A stretch of 18,513 nt of DNA. Source: Blastocladiella britannica (lineage: Eukaryota; Blastocladiomycota; Blastocladiomycetes; Blastocladiales; Blastocladiaceae). The notes under the pieces are model-generated. The model searched no databases. It had not been told where the DNA came from and was given only the letters and a program-made list of their open reading frames with translations. The DNA lies in NCBI GenBank assembly GCA_025349905.2, contig MU624760.1:6891-25403 (forward strand), given 5' to 3'. Shown one piece after another: positions 1,347 to 18,513 of the stretch; the stretch's first letter is position 1, and every line of letters starts with the position of its first letter. The position numbers and the translations under genes are program-made.

Positions 1347-4300
1347 TCAACCCGAGTACGACGCGACCTTTTCGCGCAGCGTGGTCAGGAACTGCGGGTA
1401 CGAGGGACCGTACTCGTGGCGGTCCTCGACCAGCATTCCGAGCGCCCACATGCGCAACGCCGGGTCGCCGTCCTCCTTGACAACAAACACGGTCGGGTAC
1501 ACGGACGCGATCTGGGTTGCGCGCTGCCGCAGCTTGCCAATGATGTTGGCCAGTCGCTCCGAGTACGGGTGGCCCGTGACCGGCAAGCATGTGGCGCCCG
1601 ACGCCAAGCTGTCGTACGAGCTGACGGAAAACAGCGCCTGCAGCAAGCTCGGGTCGGCCGCCCGCGACACCCACAGGTAAATGGCGATGCCGTCGGTGAG
1701 CAAGAACACGCCGTTGCGTTCGAGTCGTTCGGACGACACGGGCAGCGGGTAGGGGGGCATGCGCACGGTGCCGTCGACAATAGTGCCCAGGTCGGCCGTG
1801 TCCACCAGGATCCGGTGAATCGGGTAGAACGTCGGGTGCGCGCCCATCAGCGTGCCCTCTACCGACGCCACCCGCAGCACGTTCATGTAGTACGCGCGCA
1901 CGTCGGTCGGCACCGCCGGGTGCACGCGCAGCGCCGGGTGTTTGGACAGGCCTAGCGCCAGGACCGGAAGCAGCTTGAGGTTCTCGGGCGCCGTCAACTG
2001 CGCGGCCGAGTGCGAGCTGTTCCCGCTAACGCCGGACTTATACGTGCCCAGGATATCCACCACCTTGTTGATGATGGCGTCGCGCGCGTCCTCAAATTTG
2101 GACTCGAGCACGCGCTCCTGCGCTTTGCGGGCCAAGATGTTGATGATGGCGCCCGGGTCCGCCGCGTGCATCATGTCGGTGAGGCTGGTGGTCACGGGCA
2201 GCGCCAGGGTCACCACGCGAATCCGCCGCTCGCCGTACGCGGTAGTGTGCAGCAGCGCCGTCTGGAAGCACACCACGGACCCTTGGATGGTCTCGTCGAT
2301 CGCCAGCTCCACCGCGTACGTGTTGCTGGGGTTGACGTTGGGCAGCGACAGCAAGTCGGTCGAACGCACGAAAAAGTTGCCGTGGTAGGCGGCCATGCGG
2401 ATCCCGCGCGACGCGCGCACTCGCAGCACCGCCTCCAAACCTAACGGGCGGGTGAGCACGTGCGTGAGCTCGGCCGCAAACTTGTCCACGTCGCACTTGC
2501 GCGACGCGTGGAACGCCGGGTACATGTACACGTTCCCGCCCGTGTACTGTGGGGCCGCCGCCAGCGTCGCCACGTCAATAGGCCCGCCATTGTTTTGCGG
2601 GAACAAGAACAAGTCCACCGACACTTGCGACCGCGAGCAGTCGACCGCAAACTGCTTGTAGAACGGGTCAGACGCCTTGAACGCCGCCGGGTCCAGTTTC
2701 CCGGGCTTTTCCTCGCGCGGCTTAAGCGCGCCCTCGCGCTCGTTCGGCAGCTGCGACTGCAGCACCACAATCTTGCCGCCGTACGCCGCCACCAGCTTGT
2801 CGGCGGCCAGCAGTGCCGGGCCGAGCGCGTTGCGCGAGTTGGTGGTCCCCGCGTGCAATCCGGGCAGTCGGTCCAGCAGCGCCATGATCTGGTCCTTGCA
2901 GTCGGTCAAATTCGCCAGCAAGTCGGTCGGGAGCGGCAAAAACACGTCCTCGAGGTCGCCGACCACCAGCATCTGGGGCTCGGCCTGCTGCGCGCTCAGG
3001 TTGTAGAAATGCAGCGCCGAGTCAACGGTAAGAAACCCGACCATGGCGCGGTTATCCGAGTTGGGCAGCGCCTCGAGCGCGTCCTTGATGATTTGCGCGG
3101 CCATGTGCACCATCCCGGACTGCACCGCCACGTACGACACGTCAATCACAAACAGGTACACCGCCGGCTGCGGCGGGCGCAGCATGTACTCGGAGGGGGC
3201 AATGAACTCCACCACCGCGTGGTTGAGCTCGGGCCGCTGCCACCGGTCAATGTACGACTGCGACGTCACGTCGAAATCAAACGCCTCGGGCACGTCGTTC
3301 GGGTAGTAGCACATGTTGCATTTCCAGCGCTGGCCGCGGTCCAGGAACTGCACGTACGGATTGATGTAGGTGCGGCACCGGCGGCACCGGACGATCGTGT
3401 TGGTGTTGATGATGGGAATTTCGGGCTGTTCAATTTTTTTTTTTTTTTTTTGAAGTGGTCAGAGCCAAAACATCACCGCAAAAACAGTAAAAAATATAAG
3501 AGGATACCTCTCCCGGCTCAGGATCCCGGTACGGCGCAATGTAGAGCGCGAGCGGGATCTTGGACTTGGCCTGCAACGCCGATGTCTGCGGGAACACGTT
3601 GACGGTACAGCGCTTGAATGTGGGCGAGCAGTTGGAGTTGGGCGACAACGTGCACGCGGCCTGCGGTGACAAGCGAATAGCCGGCGGGGGAGCGTGCACC
3701 TCGTGGGGCGCCGGCGGAGCGCCAATCAGCGCAATGGCCTGGGTGCTCGCCGGCTGCATGATCGGCTGGTTCATGCCCAAGTGCGAGAACGAGTTGGCCA
3801 TGGCGTCGACCGACCCGCCCATCGACATGGTCGATCCGTACGTGGCCTTTGGGTACAGCGGCATCGGCACATTGGGCTGCGGCATCGTGGCATCGAACGA
3901 CGCCATCGACGTCTGCGACGGGTCCTGCGACGCAGTGCCGAACGCGGGCGTCGGGTGGTGCGGGCCCGGAGTCAGTCCGGGACCTGGGGGTCCCGGCGCT
4001 CCTGAGGGGGCACTGCCGTATGGAGCCGATGAAGGCTGCGGCGCGGCACCGTATCCCGCCGAAGGGAAAGGGCCACCACTACTACCGGGGGCATCGTGCG
4101 GCGCGGCCAGCGGCTGCGTGTACGCGTGCGCCATCGCCTCCGGGTACATGCGACGGCGGCCACCAGCACCGCCGAGCGGCTGGCTCGCGTTCGCCGGCGA
4201 TCCGGTCGTCTGCGGTGGTGGCACTGGCGATCCTAGGCCGCTGCCGCCCGGAGGAGGAGGAGCAGCCGACGGACCGCCATACGGCGCCGGAGACAGTGCG

Positions 4301-9560: not shown

Positions 9561-12262
9561 TTAAACCTCGTAAGCGCTCTTCATGGCGTACATAATGTGC
9601 GACACGTCCGGATCGGGGAAGCCCTTGCCGTACACGTTCACAATTGGGTACATGATGGGCTTGGCGGGGCCCTTGCTCGGTGACTTGGACCGCGAGCGCG
9701 ACCGTGCGGCGGCGGCGACAGGCGCAGCAGGGGCGGGGGCAGAAGCCTTTGGGAGAACAGCCGCGGCAGCAGCCTTGGCCGGCGACGACGACGACGACGG
9801 GGCATTATTCTTCTTGGTAGCGGCACGCTCGGCGGCTGGCTTTTTGGGAGTCGCCGCCTTGGACGAAGCACCAGATGCAGGCGCAGCAGCAGCAGCAGCA
9901 GCAACAGCAGCCGCAGCCGCAGTCGAGGTGGCATGCTTGGACGCCAGCGACGCGGCCTTGCCGTCGGGAATGGCAATAAGCACCACGGCATCGAGCGGCG
10001 ACTGGGCGGCGTGGTCGCAAATAAAGTACCCGCGGCGCTCGAGCTGGATAATGTCGCCCTTGCGCAGCGCCAGCACGTTGGCGTCGGCAATCGCGTGGGT
10101 GGTGAACTCGGTCTCCGGAGTCAGCACTGACTGGAAGTCGTCGTCCTCCTCGAGCTTCTTCTTGGTGATCAGGTAGTCAAAGTCCTTGAGCACCGCCGAC
10201 ACCGACACGCGAGCGCCGCCAGCGGCCGGAAGCTTGCCGTCGGGACCGTGCACAGCCGCGTCCACCAGCCACGTCAGCTTCTTGCGCGTCGACTTGACGT
10301 CGCCCGCCAGGTGCAGGTGCGCGTCAGCCTTAACCACTTTGCCCGACGCGGCATCGCGGTACAGCTTGTCAATCACCACGTTTCCCCAGTCCATGAGCGT
10401 CACCTCCTCGCCATCGGCCGCGTCGGCCAGATCGGTGCTGGACAGCAGCACGTGCTTGGCAAACGCCGTGCGCTTGGTGCCCACCTCCGGGTTCTTCTTG
10501 TGCTTGGGCAGGTCCGTAAACTCCACCTGGGCGGGTCCATTGGCCAGCGCCACGGGAACCACGTCGTGGGTGTCGAGGGCCACGAGGCGCGGGGCGATCG
10601 GGTCAATCAGCTTCTTGTTGATGGCCCAGAACTTGTCCCACTCGAGCAGCAGCGTGTTGGTGGACGCGCCCTGCATCAAAATGTACTGGCGCAGCGCGTC
10701 AATGGTCATTCCGCGGCGGCGAATGCCACGGACCGTCGGGAACCGCGGGTCGTCCCATCCACCGACGTGGCCATTGTCGACGAACCACTGCAGCTTGCGC
10801 TTGGACAGCAGCGTGTACACAAAGTTGATGCGCGAAAAGTCCCAAATGTGCACCTTGCGCAGCTTGAGCTTCTTGATGACCCACTCGTACTGCGGGTTGC
10901 GGTCGCGGTACTCGTTGGTGCGCAGCGCGTGCGTCACGCCCTCGAGCGAGTCCACCACGGGGCACGCAAAGTCGTATGTCGGGTACACCTTGTACTTGGA
11001 CCCGACCTTGTGGTGCGGGGTCAGGTTGGTGCGGAAAAACACCGGGTCGCGCAGCGCCTTGTTCTTGTCGTCGACCGACATTTTGGCGCGCACACAGTTG
11101 CGGAGCCCTTCCTCGCTACCCTTTTGCATCTCGCGCCAGAGACGCAAGTTCTCGTCCACCGACTGGTCGCGGCGCACCGACGCGATTCCGTGCATGCGGT
11201 TGTGGCGCATCGTCTCCTGGTCCGTGTCGTCCACGTACGCGTCGCCCTGGCGGATCAACTGGTCGCACAGCTGCAGGAGCTTCGGGAAATGGTCCGACGT
11301 GTGGGTGATCACGTCCGGCTTGATGCCCAGCAGCTGCAGGTCCTCCAAGATCGACTGCTCAAACTCCATCTTCTCCTTGTCCGGGTTAGTGTCGTCAAAC
11401 CGCACAATCATCTTGCCGCCGTACTGGCGGGCGAAATGCTCGTTGAGGAGCGCGGCCTTGGCGTGGCCAATGTGGAGGTACCCGGACGGCTCGGGCGGGA
11501 ACCGCGTCACCACGCCGCCCATGTGCGCTCCCGGCAGCGCAATGTCAAACGATCCTTGGTCCTTCTTGGCCTTGTTGGAGACCGACACGCGCGCGGTCCA
11601 TGCCGCCAGTGCCGCCGCGGTTCCGGGTTGGTCCTCGACCGCGCGGTACCAGCGCATGAGGTGCGGAAAGGGGCTAGTCGCAGCGGTGCCAGTGGCGGCG
11701 GCCTTGGCGTAGCGCGACACAAACAGCGGCGACGCGCGCAGCTGGTGCCACAGGTACATATCGGCCAGCGACAGGTGGTACCCGACCAGGTACGACCGCA
11801 TGGCCAGGAACGCGTCCACGTTGGTGAGCTTGTCCTTGAGCGCGACCGGGTCGGCGGCCGGGATCGCCTCGTCCATGAAGTTGTCGATGGTGGTGGCCTT
11901 GTCGGGCGACGGCTTGCCAAAGTGCGCCTCGTATAGATCGGCCAGGTACACGCGGCACAGGTACCGCATGATGCCCTTGGGCTTGGAGTACTTGAGGCCA
12001 ATGGCCGACACTAGCAGCGCGGCGGGCGCGGTGGCGTCCTCGGTGGTGGACACGGCAATGGCTCCCGGGCGCACTTCATTGACGAGGTGGGCAAGGACCA
12101 GCGGGCCTGTGTTTGTATTTTATCTGTCAGTTTGTTTATCTGACATTGATAGTCAAAGGCCAGACCATGGGCAACGTCCTTGACGGACAGGGTCAGAGAG
12201 CATGGGGACGACGACGACGCCGCCGTCGACGTCGGTGGGGCGGCAGCTGCGGCCGGGGTCAT
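9561..12262 (-). CDS. GUS1: cytosolic glutamyl-tRNA synthetase (two exons)
   Basis: Class I synthetase that charges tRNA-Glu with glutamate in the cytosol. Exons are 12262-12145 and 12106-9561, about 887 residues. The proposed 38-nt intron (12107-12144) starts GTCAGA, holds a CTGAC branch site and ends ACACAG; it joins FDYQ to CPLVLAHLVNEV in frame. Residues 1 to about 220 are a GST-like domain as in yeast Gus1 and animal EPRS (SYLVGYHLSLADMYLWHQL). The catalytic core has RFPPEPSGYLHIGHAKAALL (HIGH at 251-254) and the KMSKS-equivalent SKRKL (474-478). YPTYDFACPVVDSLEGVTHALRT and EWDKFWAINKKLIDPIAPR mark the eukaryotic/archaeal GluRS type rather than GlnRS. The anticodon-binding barrel ends near residue 756. 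A tail of about 130 residues follows: Ala/Lys-rich, then SRSRSKSPSKG, then a conserved-looking end with VNVYGKGFPDPDVSHIMYA. No prolyl-tRNA synthetase is fused. Confidence 0.94.
9881..9922. repeat. GCA/CAG trinucleotide repeat inside GluRS
   Basis: A run of mostly GCA units, read on the coding strand as GCT/GCG-type alanine codons, encodes the Ala run in the C-terminal tail of GluRS. It is imperfect (interrupted by CAA and CCG units). It is a candidate length-variable microsatellite with no other sign of function. Confidence 0.75.
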
Positions 12263-15065: not shown

Positions 15066-16305
15066 TTACGTTCGTTTCTTCTGCTTGAGCGCCTCAAAGA
15101 AATCGGTAATGTCTTGCTCGCCGACCGTCTTGCCCGCTTCTGCAAACGCGCGCAGATGATCCTTGAGGCTGGCGGCCAGCGTGTCCATGGCGTGCATGCC
15201 CTCGATGGCCGCGACCCGATCGACGCGGTGCAGCATCTCGATGCCCGCGTCGTACAGGGACTTGCCCGCGTCAGGGTCGTCTTCGGGCGTCCACACCGAC
15301 TCGGGGGCGTGCAACCAGGGGAGCGACGTGGCTGCCCGCTGGGTGCACTCGGTGCACCGGCAGACGTGATCGCGCCAGTCCTCGGGGAGAAAGAGCCATG
15401 CAGTTGCGGCCGTGTCTAGCCGCGCGCGTTTGCGATCGGGCATGCTGTTGCCCGTGTCGTCGGTCGGAGATCGTGGACGTTTGGACCCAAGTGAAGCGGT
15501 CGGTCCCGTTAGTTGTTGTTGGGGCGACGGTGGTGGTGGCAGTGCGACGCAAATGGGCTGCTCTCGCGACGCTTCCCCGTCAACCTGCAGCACGGACAGT
15601 GCGGCGAGGGGTTCGAGATGGAGCTGTGCATCAAATGGTTTGCATTTTTGCAATGCAAAGAAAAAAAAGGGTCGTACCGAGGTGACGCATGCGCGGCAAA
15701 TCAGGTCGTCGTACGTATCCTTCTCGGGCAGTGTGCCGTCCTGCCAATACAAAAGAGTGAGTAACAACACAAAAAGAAAGAAAACAAGAAAAACAAACCA
15801 AAGAAATACATCGATCGTGGAACCAGTCCTGGCAGGCGATGCACTGCAGCATGGTGCCCGTCTCGGTCGCAGGGTCATAGCGTGAGTCACACACGCAGTA
15901 CCGGGCGGAAAAATTGTGGTTGTAACGGTTGTCGTGGTTGACTTCGCGCTGGACGACATGATGATCGTGGTCGTGAGTCGTGAGAGCGCATGGGGACATG
16001 CGCGGCGTGCCGCAGTCGCAGCGAAAGGCGCGCTTGACAAAGAGCTCCTCGACCTCGTGGTTGGTGTGGCATTCAATCACGCACGCATAGCACACGCCCG
16101 TGGGCTGGCGGAGGTCGCTGCCACCATCGCCGGTATGTAGCGGGTTGCACGTCAGGCAGACAAAGACATTCTGGTTCAGGTGGCCGAGGTCGTACGAGCA
16201 CTTGTCCGTGCGGAATGCGTACTTGGCGGCCGCTTCCGACTCGAGCTCGAGCTCTCGCGCCAACATGTCCTCGGCGGTCACCGTTCCATTATTAATGTCG
16301 GTCAT
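15066..16305 (-). CDS. UBR7: UBR-box and PHD-finger protein, UBR7-like (three exons)
   Basis: Exons: 16305-15799, 15740-15678 and 15623-15066, about 375 residues. UBR7 (Mlo2 in fission yeast) is a chromatin-linked protein; the human PHD finger has been reported as a histone H2B ubiquitin ligase. Residues 36-102 form the UBR box with its Cys/His zinc ligands (KCSYDLGHLNQNVFVCLTC, CYACVIECHTNHEVEELF, RAFRCDCG). Residues about 136-187 form the PHD finger (YCVCDSRYDP, LQCIACQDWFHDRC, then across intron 1 LICRAC). The C-terminal conserved part has WLFLPEDWRDHVCRCTEC and a final ITDFFEALKQKKR, as in the family. Intron 1 (58 nt, GTTTGT...GGCAG) restores PHD continuity. Intron 2 (54 nt, 15624-15677) is a multiple of three without a stop, so retention would add 18 residues. 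The ATG at 16305 lies only 32 nt after the H2B stem-loop. Its neighbour is H2B, the proposed substrate family of human UBR7; this may be chance. Confidence 0.92.
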
Positions 16306-16337
16306 ATAATAATTCAAGAAAAAGGCGTCTTTATTGT

Positions 16338-16353
16338 GGTTTTTAAAAAAACC
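16338..16353 (-). promoter_or_regulatory. H2B 3' stem-loop matching the histone mRNA 3'-end consensus
   Basis: On the H2B strand this reads GGTTTTTTTAAAAACC, matching all 16 positions of the animal histone stem-loop consensus GGYYYUUHUHARRRCC: a six-pair stem GGTTTT/AAAACC and tetraloop TTTA. It starts 76 nt after the H2B stop codon, is preceded by a pyrimidine tract (TTTCTCTTCTACC) and followed by ACAATAAAG. The same 16 nt plus 4 nt before and 4 nt after of the shared block recur after H2A. In animals SLBP binds this hairpin to direct non-polyadenylated 3'-end formation. An AATAAA overlaps the downstream side (plus coordinates 16330-16335), so polyadenylation is an alternative. Confidence 0.7.
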
Positions 16354-16429
16354 GGTAGAAGAGAAAGGAAAAAAAATAATTACAGGGGCCGGACAGGGAT
16401 GGTGGTGGTCGTGAAGAGGGGGAAAAAAA

Positions 16430-16899
16430 TTACTGCTTAGTGGTCGACGTGTACTTGGCCACGGCCTTGGTGCCCTCCGAGACGGCATGCTTGGCCAGCT
16501 CACCGGGGAGCAAGAGGCGGACGGCGGTCTGAATTTCGCGCGACGAGATGGTCGACTTCTTGTTGTAAGCCGACAGCTTGGACGCCTCCTCGGCAATGCG
16601 CTCGAAGATATCGCGCACAAACGAGTCCATGATCGACATGGCCTTGTTGGACACGCCCACGTCGGGGTGGACCTGCTTGAGGACCTTGTAAATGTACGTG
16701 TTGAACGTCTCCTTGCGCGACACCTTACGCTTTCCGGCCTTCTTCTCGCCGGCGGGCGCGGACGACTTGACGGGGGCTGTTGGTTTTAAGGGCGATCGAG
16801 TCAGTATTAATTTATTTAATTAATTTAGAAAATTATTGTATGCGCACCCTTGCCCGCGGGCTTCTTGGTGGCAACGGCTTCGGTGGACTTGGGGGGCAT
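16430..16899 (-). CDS. H2B: core histone H2B (two exons)
   Basis: Exons are 16899-16848 and 16776-16430, about 132 residues, usual for H2B. The 71-nt intron (GTGCGC...CCAACAG) lies in the basic N-terminal tail, joining KKPAGK to [10 protein letters not shown]. The histone fold is complete: [79 protein letters not shown]. The C-terminal lysine equivalent to the ubiquitinated K120/K123 is present in AVAKYTS. It is transcribed divergently from H2A across a 485-nt promoter. Its leader on the coding strand is rich in CCACC repeats, like that of H2A. A histone-type stem-loop follows the stop codon. Animal replication-dependent histone genes lack introns, so intron plus stem-loop is an unusual pairing. 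Confidence 0.97.
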
Positions 16900-17054
16900 C
16901 GTGGTGGTGATAAAAGTGGTGGGGGGTGGTGGTTGGGTGGTCGAGAAAAATAGAACCGATGTGGTGGATGGCGAAAGAGAAAAGAGGTTGGGTTGAGCGT
17001 GGTGCTCAGCAGCCTTTATCAATTTTTTTGTGCTGAACAAGACACGCAAACAGT

Positions 17055-17079
17055 GAAATTTCGGCAGAGTCCGAGAAAA
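17055..17079 (+). repeat. 25-nt promoter element, copy 1 (direct)
   Basis: Begins GAAATTTCGGCAGAGTCCGA and ends GAAAA. Copy 2 lies 28 nt downstream with one C-to-T difference, and an exact inverted copy lies at 17174-17198. The start GAAATTTC is itself a palindrome. Confidence 0.85.
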
Positions 17080-17082
17080 TGC

Positions 17083-17107
17083 GAAATTTCGGTAGAGTCC
17101 GAGAAAA
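17083..17107 (+). repeat. 25-nt promoter element, copy 2 (direct)
   Basis: Same as copy 1 except GGTAG in place of GGCAG. Spacing of 28 nt places the two copies a little under three helical turns apart. Confidence 0.85.
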
Positions 17108-17119
17108 AACGCAAGAAAA

Positions 17120-17141
17120 AGTTCAGTCAGGTGACTGAACT
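17120..17141. repeat. 22-nt palindrome AGTTCAGTCA-GG-TGACTGAACT
   Basis: Perfect ten-nt arms around a GG centre. It contains the hexamer CAGGTG (E-box type) across its centre. It sits near the middle between the direct and inverted 25-nt elements. The right part (GTCAGGTGACTGAACTT, 17126-17142) is repeated at 17146-17162. Confidence 0.85.
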
Positions 17142-17145
17142 TAGG

Positions 17146-17162
17146 GTCAGGTGACTGAACTT
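17146..17162 (+). repeat. second copy of the 17-nt GTCAGGTGACTGAACTT unit
   Basis: Identical to 17126-17142 at a 20-nt offset, about two helical turns. It includes a second CAGGTG. The left palindrome arm is absent here, so selection on a bound site rather than hairpin formation alone is plausible. Confidence 0.8.
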
Positions 17163-17173
17163 TCAAAACGCGA

Positions 17174-17198
17174 TTTTCTCGGACTCTGCCGAAATTTC
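17174..17198 (-). repeat. 25-nt promoter element, inverted copy
   Basis: Exact reverse complement of 17055-17079; one further base pair (17080 with 17173) extends the match to 26 nt. With copy 1 it defines a 144-nt inverted repeat with the palindrome in its loop. Confidence 0.88.
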
Positions 17199-17384
17199 GT
17201 GAAACCTGAACATACGGCACACGAGTTCAGAGTTCATAACGCAGCTCAAGTCCCCGTCGCTCTCTCCCAAATCATCGAATCATACCACCTCTTTTAACGC
17301 TCGCTTTTTGTTCTCGAAGCGACCACCACCCACCAACCACCACCACCCACCACCTACCCCCCCCCCACCCACTCTTAAACCAAA

Positions 17385-17786
17385 ATGGCCGGCAAAGGAG
17401 GCAAGAAGACCGTCGAGGCCGTCAAGACCGGCAAGTCGCGCTCGGCCAAGGCCGGCCTGCAGTTCCCCGTGGGCCGCATCCACCGTCTGCTGCGCAAGGG
17501 CAACTACGCCACCCGCATTGGTGCCGGCGCGCCCGTGTACCTGGCCGCCGTGCTCGAGTACCTGTCGGCCGAGATTCTCGAGCTGGCCGGCAACGCTGCC
17601 CGCGACAACAAGAAGACGCGCGTGATCCCCCGCCACCTCCAGCTTGCCATCCGCAACGACGAGGAGCTCAACAAGCTGCTCGGCAACGTCACGATCGCCC
17701 AGGGCGGTGTCATCCCGACCATCAACCCCGCGCTCCTGCCCCCCTCCAAGAAGGGTGAGAAGGGCTCGCAGTCGGACAACGAGTAA
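17385..17786 (+). CDS. H2A: core histone H2A (single exon)
   Basis: An intronless frame of 133 residues, normal for H2A. The histone fold and acidic-patch sequence are canonical: [90 protein letters not shown]. It is a major-type H2A, not H2A.Z (no Z-specific docking sequence). The tail is unusual: it ends [11 protein letters not shown], with an SQ dipeptide followed by SDNE instead of the terminal SQ-acidic-hydrophobic motif typical of fungal H2A and animal H2A.X. The start is fixed by MAGKGGKK and the AAACCAAAATGG context. It is divergent from H2B and followed by a histone-type stem-loop 79 nt after the stop. Confidence 0.97.
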
Positions 17787-17865
17787 TTTTTTTTGTGTTC
17801 CATATTTCCCCCGTCCTCGTACCCGTCGTCGCCGTCCTGTTTTTTTTTTTTCTTCTCTTTATCCC

Positions 17866-17881
17866 GGTTTTTTTAAAAACC
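17866..17881 (+). promoter_or_regulatory. H2A 3' stem-loop matching the histone mRNA 3'-end consensus
   Basis: GGTTTTTTTAAAAACC, identical to the element behind H2B and matching GGYYYUUHUHARRRCC at all 16 positions. A pyrimidine tract (TTCTTCTCTTTATCCC) precedes it and ACAATA follows. About 12 nt beyond the stem comes a purine-rich stretch (CAGGAGAGGTGATGG), placed where animal genes have the U7-pairing downstream element. An AATAAA at 17922-17927 could give an alternative polyadenylated end. Confidence 0.7.
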
Positions 17882-17887
17882 ACAATA

Positions 17888-18513
17888 TACGGCTCAGGAG
17901 AGGTGATGGTGTTTTAGGAGAAATAAAATCTCATTCTTGCGAATTATATGCCGTTTTCCGATATTTACCACTCTTTCCAGAAAAAGACCTCATATTTCCC
18001 AGTGAAATCCGACATGTGGTGACATGTCGGTTGGACCCGTTTCCTCATGAAATCGCACATCCAAAACCGTCAGAAAACCGGCCAACCTCGCAATTCTGAG
18101 TATCCCTGATCCCGTTTCCAGCAGAAACCGCATTCCATTTCCATCCAAAATCCAGCCAAAGCTGAACCCAATTCCTATTCATCATATAAAACTTTCTTAA
18201 ATTCACTCTTACCCCAAATACACACGCTCAATCAGATCCAAAACCCGCTCGACCTTGATCGCACACGAAAGAACCTATACAAAAGAAATAAACATGTTAT
18301 GCTCGAGACTGAATGTCAAATAAACCAGAAAAGGCCACACCCGCAGCAAGCTTCTCGACTGCACCTGATGCACTTGACTGGACCCGACACGGCAAACATA
18401 AAGAAAAACAAGAGGCAGAATGAGACAACGCTCAAGCCGTTTGGGTGTTGACAAATAAAAGGCCGCGCACACAAAAGAAACAAGACGAAGAGTAAAAGTA
18501 AATAATATGGATG
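17888..18513. other. AT-richer gene-free tail with a short palindrome
   Basis: No supported gene is seen in these 626 nt. Composition shifts from the GC-rich coding style to AT-rich. The only ORF of note (18275-18472, minus, 65 codons) has no coding-like bias. AATAAA at 17922-17927 is a possible poly(A) signal for H2A. A perfect inverted repeat CCGACATGT-ggtg-ACATGTCGG lies at 18009-18030. No tRNA, terminal repeat of a mobile element or tandem array is visible. It may hold the upstream region of a gene beyond the window. Confidence 0.5.

Follow-up and report, generated by a model that had tools for sequence, protein, structure and literature searches.

Gene organization of the histone locus

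The window, i.e. the whole analysed stretch of DNA with a length of 18,513 nucleotides, contains two canonical core histone genes. H2A is encoded on the plus strand and H2B on the minus strand, and the two genes are transcribed divergently. The following features were annotated at and around this gene pair (coordinates refer to the window).

16027–16305, minus strand: beginning of the gene that follows H2B on its strand, a UBR-box zinc finger (PF02207, 2.6e-7)
16330–16335, minus strand: AATAAA overlapping the end of the shared block, 2 nt past the H2B hairpin
16353–16338, minus strand: H2B hairpin, lying within the 24-nt block 16332–16355 that is common to the H2A flank (RF00032, 25.7 bits)
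16430–16776, minus strand: exon 2 of histone H2B including the stop codon; the spliced protein has 132 aa (PF00125, 7e-21)
16777–16847, minus strand: H2B intron of 71 nt, GT-AG, deduced from the reading frame and the splice sites
16848–16899, minus strand: exon 1 of histone H2B
16900–17384, no strand: region of 485 bp between the divergent start codons of H2B and H2A
17385–17786, plus strand: coding sequence of histone H2A, one open frame of 133 aa (PF16211, 5e-17; PF00125, 1e-13)
17840–17863, plus strand: U/C-rich tract before the H2A hairpin, resembling the tract before the H2B hairpin (inverted repeat I1)
17866–17881, plus strand: H2A hairpin GGTTTTTTTAAAAACC, followed by ACAATA and lying within the 24-nt block 17864–17887 that is common to the H2B flank (RF00032, 22.7 bits)
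17922–17927, plus strand: AATAAA, 40 nt past the H2A hairpin, a possible poly(A) signal

H2B and the UBR-box gene are arranged in tandem, and the distance from the H2B stop codon to the likely ATG of the neighbour is 124 nt (16306–16429). The H2B 3' UTR and the promoter of the UBR-box gene must therefore overlap or abut. Because this likely ATG is located only 32 nt past the hairpin, the 3' end of H2B must be compact. In the region between H2B and H2A, positions 17048–17199 contain two direct repeats of 28 nt with 86% similarity and, in inverted orientation, a perfect copy of 26 nt (GAAATTTCGGCAGAGTCCGAGAAAAT). Two TCAGGTGACTGAACTT repeats are located between them. It is possible that these repeats constitute a histone promoter element. 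Elsewhere in the window, a tRNA synthetase of the GluRS/GlnRS type is encoded at 9561–12074 on the minus strand, whose best two matches among solved structures are named glutamyl-tRNA synthetase.

A hairpin common to the 3' flanks of H2A and H2B

The 24-nt block at positions 17864–17887 of the plus strand is identical, letter for letter, to positions 16355–16332 read on the minus strand. The stem begins 79 nt after the stop codon in H2A and 76 nt after it in H2B. An earlier note on this DNA had reported an identical block at these distances, and both its coordinates and its identity proved to be exact. The note had further stated that the core of the block agrees with the histone stem-loop consensus at every position. 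This was also found to be correct: when the consensus supplied there (GGYYYUUHUHARRRCC) was used for testing, GGYYYTTHTHARRRCC was matched by both hairpin cores without a single mismatch on the sense strand of the respective gene. A sense-strand match to the consensus, a short distance past the stop codon, is consequently present in two of the two canonical core histone genes that were found.

The hairpin possesses a 6-bp stem consisting mostly of A-U pairs (a T4/A4 run and two G-C pairs) and a UUUA loop. The folding energy of the 16-mer is -2.8 kcal/mol, which corresponds to a weak stem. If the hairpin is read in antisense direction, the loop does not fit the consensus. The stem is preceded by CC in both genes, i.e. 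the usual 5' adenines are missing, and it is followed in both by a 3' A that is part of an ACA. According to the accessible part of a study on animal SLBP, the minimal ligand comprises two adenines 5' and one adenine 3' of the stem (PMC10388802); the H2A and H2B hairpins contain only the 3' A.

The similarity of the two flanks reaches beyond the hairpin. Inverted repeat I1 extends over 48 nt (83%) and includes the U/C-rich tract. Downstream of ACAATA, no sequence is common to H2A and H2B and no shared HDE is visible in this comparison of two genes only, between which HDEs may differ.

Rarity of the hairpin in the window and in the assembly

The two consensus matches in the window compare with a mean of 0.01 in shuffled sequences, and at least two matches occurred in one of 200 shuffles. 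On both strands of the 15.26-Mb assembly (624 contigs), the exact 16-mer GGTTTTTTTAAAAACC occurs twice, at the H2A and the H2B site. The degenerate consensus GGYYYTTHTHARRRCC is found at three sites, versus one site for the reversed control pattern. Its third site, C499:9013, falls within a 344-codon frame of the strand it is on, an 840-codon frame of the opposite strand has its edge there, and the site looks like a chance match. It was rejected as a further member on the grounds of these overlapping long frames and of one stem pair that is mismatched by reading. At the genome-wide rate, the probability of a match in both 100-nt sense flanks is approximately 1e-10, under the assumption of random placement and of two independent flanks.

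In the window, RF00032 aligns with both hairpins over the full model length and without a broken pair, and neither score reaches the gathering cut-off, which is 34 bits. Four U-A pairs in the stem, together with the lack of 5' adenines, probably account for the low scores. Because the hairpin fails the Rfam cut-off and lacks these adenines, it was classified as a variant and not as a plain RF00032 member. The genome-wide search scored 75 of its 1446 first-look candidates and reported five matches, of which the two strongest, with E-values of 3.4e-4 and 4.6e-3, are the sites behind the two histone genes. The weaker sites on C489, C594 and C401 have E-values of 1.7, 2.8 and 9.2, respectively. 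RF00032 matches with E up to 10 were also obtained in all 14 prokaryote control genomes, none of them over the cut-off and none with an individual E-value given.

An SLBP gene in the same assembly

The earlier note had proposed a search for the SLBP RNA-binding domain, and this search was positive. PF15247 matched two exons on contig C611, each above the cut-off, and had no match in the 14 control genomes. In the corresponding gene model (L013, minus strand), three exons are joined over two GT-AG introns of 75 and 73 nt to an open frame of 583 aa; the 3' end of this model is uncertain and further exons are possible. The spliced protein contains a single Pfam domain, SLBP_RNA_bind, with 99.1 bits compared to a cut-off of 27 (E 1.4e-28). 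Among solved chains, all four distinct sequences that were matched are histone RNA hairpin-binding proteins (best E 7.5e-14). The identity to the best chain, 4tux, amounts to 30 of 65 aligned residues, and that to 4l8r to 33 of 72. We take 4tux to be a chain of Drosophila SLBP and 4l8r to be the human one.

The protein keeps Arg181 (R224) and the phosphorylatable threonine of the TPNK motif (T214), which reads TPTK here. At the positions of human Tyr144, Asn173, Tyr178 and Arg180, it contains Phe, Thr, Cys and Thr, respectively. The protein is long (583 aa or more) and has low-complexity arms that are rich in Q, H and P.

U7 snRNA and Lsm proteins

For U7 snRNA, no RF00066 match was found in the assembly at E up to 10, with 65 of 928 candidates scored. 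Weak RF00066 matches at E up to 10 were present in 12 of the 14 prokaryote control genomes; none exceeded the cut-off, and this count comes without individual E-values. The LSM family (PF01423) yielded 16 matches at 13 genes in the assembly. By reading their translations, these genes were assigned to SmB, SmD1, SmD2, SmD3, SmE, SmF, LSM1, LSM3, LSM4, LSM5, LSM7, LSM8 and NAA38. The assignment was checked against named chains for three of the 13 genes (SmD2, SmD1 and NAA38), and the match of NAA38 was weak (E 7.5e-6). Neither Lsm10 nor Lsm11 was recognized by reading among the 13 LSM genes. Since SmG, LSM2 and LSM6 are likewise missing from the recognized set, Lsm10 and Lsm11 may nevertheless exist.

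Other histone genes in the assembly

In the whole assembly, PF00125 has seven matches at six genes, including the H2A and H2B genes of the window. The match on C109 was rejected as a core histone, as it belongs to a protein of the CBF/NF-Y type, and so was the match on C589, which is a TAF. Two genes were rejected as canonical core histones by reading: C266 (L014), which is represented by two PF00125 pieces and is CENP-A-like, and C135 (L015), which is a divergent H3-like gene. The latter is located on the minus strand at about 2650–3110 and consists of several exons.

The earlier note had also proposed to inspect the 3' flanks of all histone genes. The hairpin is present behind H2A and H2B, and it was found behind neither of the two divergent H3-type genes when about 385 nt past the stop codon were searched with a relaxed pattern. 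In animals, where the hairpin takes the place of a poly(A) tail on histone mRNAs, it is carried only by replication histones; its occurrence here on two of two canonical genes and on none of the two H3-type variants fits this rule. No canonical H3 was found in the assembly, and a query with the human H4 protein, made with no positive control, gave no match. The assembly is therefore judged to be probably incomplete, and the missing H3 and H4 genes probably represent an assembly gap. The search for a linker histone had no match in the assembly and none in the controls either, and is hence uninformative.

The host organism

Fungal_trans has five matches in the assembly and none in the 14 control genomes. 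Three of these five were scanned with Pfam: one contains a Zn(2)-Cys(6) cluster over the cut-off, one reaches 20.1 compared to a cut-off of 21, and one shows no such cluster in the given frame. The five matches, and the one cluster over the cut-off, support the proviso of the earlier note that the organism is a fungus. Furthermore, a radial spoke gene (PF04712) was found as two adjoining matches with E-values of 4e-77 and 1e-38, the second frame containing two stops and perhaps an intron. This gene indicates a flagellum. Given what these marker families are known for, the host is likely to be an early-branching fungus with zoospores or an organism very closely related to one.

The G+C content is 57% for the SLBP stretch, 57–63% for five other stretches and 60% for the window. 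The introns seen on the histone contig C221 and on C611 are short GT-AG introns of 71–75 nt. C611 additionally bears an Lsm gene, which is LSM8 by reading.

Interpretation of the hairpin and alternative explanations

Judged from the sequences, it is highly probable that the hairpin is a variant of the histone mRNA 3' stem-loop on H2A and H2B, and that the C611 SLBP is its binding partner. A quite different origin would be a low-complexity palindrome of a T-run and an A-run that arose by chance and was perhaps copied between the divergent genes by gene conversion. The T4/A4 stem with two G-C pairs only, the T-rich 3' UTRs and the extension of the similarity over 48 nt (83%) are in line with such an origin. 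However, the exact 16-mer exists nowhere else in the 15.26 Mb, a consensus loop and a 3' ACA are present on the sense strand of both genes, and the same assembly contains an SLBP gene. A palindrome of this kind was rejected on the basis of the genome-wide counts (two for the 16-mer, three versus one for the consensus and its reversal; about 1e-10), and we consider it very improbable. Little credence is also given to the assumption that one of the two contigs, either the one with the SLBP gene or the one with the histone genes, is an animal or protist contamination, such that the two halves of the system do not stem from one fungus. It is true that the fungal and flagellar markers are located on contigs other than C221 and C611, and that the assembly consists of 624 contigs and may be incomplete. 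On the other hand, the G+C content of the SLBP stretch is similar to that of the window (57% versus 60%), short GT-AG introns of similar length are found on both contigs, and C611 also carries the Lsm gene.

An explanation that has the SLBP-binding half in common with the preferred one concerns the fate of the transcript. The H2A and H2B mRNAs might be polyadenylated in the ordinary way and carry the hairpin as a real SLBP site within their 3' UTRs. SLBP would then influence their translation or stability, and the normal machinery would form the 3' end at AATAAA. The AATAAA motifs 2 nt (H2B) and 40 nt (H2A) past the hairpin are consistent with this, and so is the outcome of the assembly searches, in which no U7, shared HDE or Lsm10/11 was found. 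Moreover, SLBP2 of Trypanosoma brucei interacts with eIF4E2, which suggests a role in translation, according to the accessible part of that report (PMC7139794). However, a conserved AATAAA follows the hairpin in C. elegans as well, and most histone mRNAs nevertheless end just past the hairpin and lack poly(A), as described in the available sections of the corresponding study (PMC1924863). Its authors, in the same sections, leave room for cleavage at the poly(A) signal and subsequent trimming back to the hairpin (PMC1924863). In addition, the 32 nt between the H2B hairpin and the next likely ATG leave little room for a poly(A) site. We regard polyadenylated mRNAs of this kind as rather unlikely. 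Because the combination of a hairpin and a close AATAAA still gives ends without poly(A) in C. elegans, it is fairly likely that the H2A and H2B mRNAs end without poly(A) here, provided that the hairpin indeed serves as an SLBP site.

For a variant histone stem-loop bound by SLBP, the following sequence of events can be envisaged. The C611 SLBP would bind the hairpin RNA GGUUUUUUUAAAAACC in the 3' UTR of H2A and H2B; by analogy with animals, binding would occur in the nucleus. The CPSF73 core, which is common to polyadenylation, would then cut a few bases past the stem with the help of SLBP, and the mRNA would end at this position without a long poly(A) tail. As in animals, SLBP might remain attached to the mRNA during its export, its translation and its S-phase-linked decay, and hairpin and SLBP may thus couple histone mRNA to S phase. 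U7 could have been replaced by something else, could be missing from the assembly, or could have diverged too far for detection. The animal route, which is also established knowledge, is outlined in the accessible parts of two publications as binding of SLBP to the stem-loop, cleavage by CPSF73, and export, translation and decay (PMC7614891, PMC12441778). We tentatively suggest, as one possible scenario and with less than even confidence, that an early-branching flagellated fungus has kept the ancestral SLBP route for its core histones in a reduced version. This version would comprise a hairpin that is A/U-rich and lacks 5' adenines, an H2B gene with an intron, and a 3' end determined by SLBP together with AATAAA and the CPSF core, and it would do without a U7 snRNP. 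The Dikarya would then have lost SLBP after U7, and separately from it.

If the hairpin is a true SLBP site and the SLBP gene was vertically inherited, the system was already present in the ancestor that animals and fungi share, and its loss took place among the fungi. It would then be possible to date the loss and, from a comparison between zoosporic fungi and Dikarya, to test what caused it. In addition, SLBP function could be studied in zoosporic fungi as a simple model, perhaps one without U7.

Comparison with known systems

No report of SLBP in a fungus was found in the literature searched, the coverage of which was limited and comprised few subscription papers. Proteins of chytrids with an SLBP domain may be present in protein databases, and a paper by Davila Lopez and Samuelsson from 2008 is said to deal with the early evolution of histone 3' processing. 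Among protists, SLBP systems exist in Dictyostelium and in alveolates. In the accessible part of one article, the non-polyadenylated stem-loop form of histone mRNA is described as not found in plants and fungi (PMC6723414). Similarly, the available text of a 2019 review states that such histone mRNAs are lacking in fungi.

The system described here resembles the metazoan one (RF00032, SLBP and U7) in the 6-bp stem, the 4-nt loop, the fit to the consensus, the short distance from the stop codon and the 3' ACA, and an SLBP RNA-binding domain is encoded in the same assembly. In contrast to the metazoan system, the stem is A/U-rich, the 5' flank is CC instead of adenines, the Rfam score is under the cut-off, H2B contains an intron, and no U7, shared HDE, Lsm10 or Lsm11 was detected in the assembly. 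With the histone 3' ends of C. elegans, it shares an AATAAA close behind the hairpin. According to the accessible sections on C. elegans, however, a conserved AATCC element, at the putative U7 site, is located between hairpin and AATAAA (PMC1924863), whereas no such element is shared by H2A and H2B past ACAATA. As in protists, SLBP or the hairpin occurs here outside animals; the accessible parts of the respective papers describe SLBP2 of Trypanosoma brucei (PMC7139794) and the hairpins of Perkinsus (PMC6723414). Unlike the protist systems, the one reported here is found in an assembly that carries regulators of fungal type. The novelty lies in the lineage, in the A/U-rich stem and in the intron of H2B; as a whole, this is regarded as a variant of a known system, occurring in a lineage that is said to lack it.
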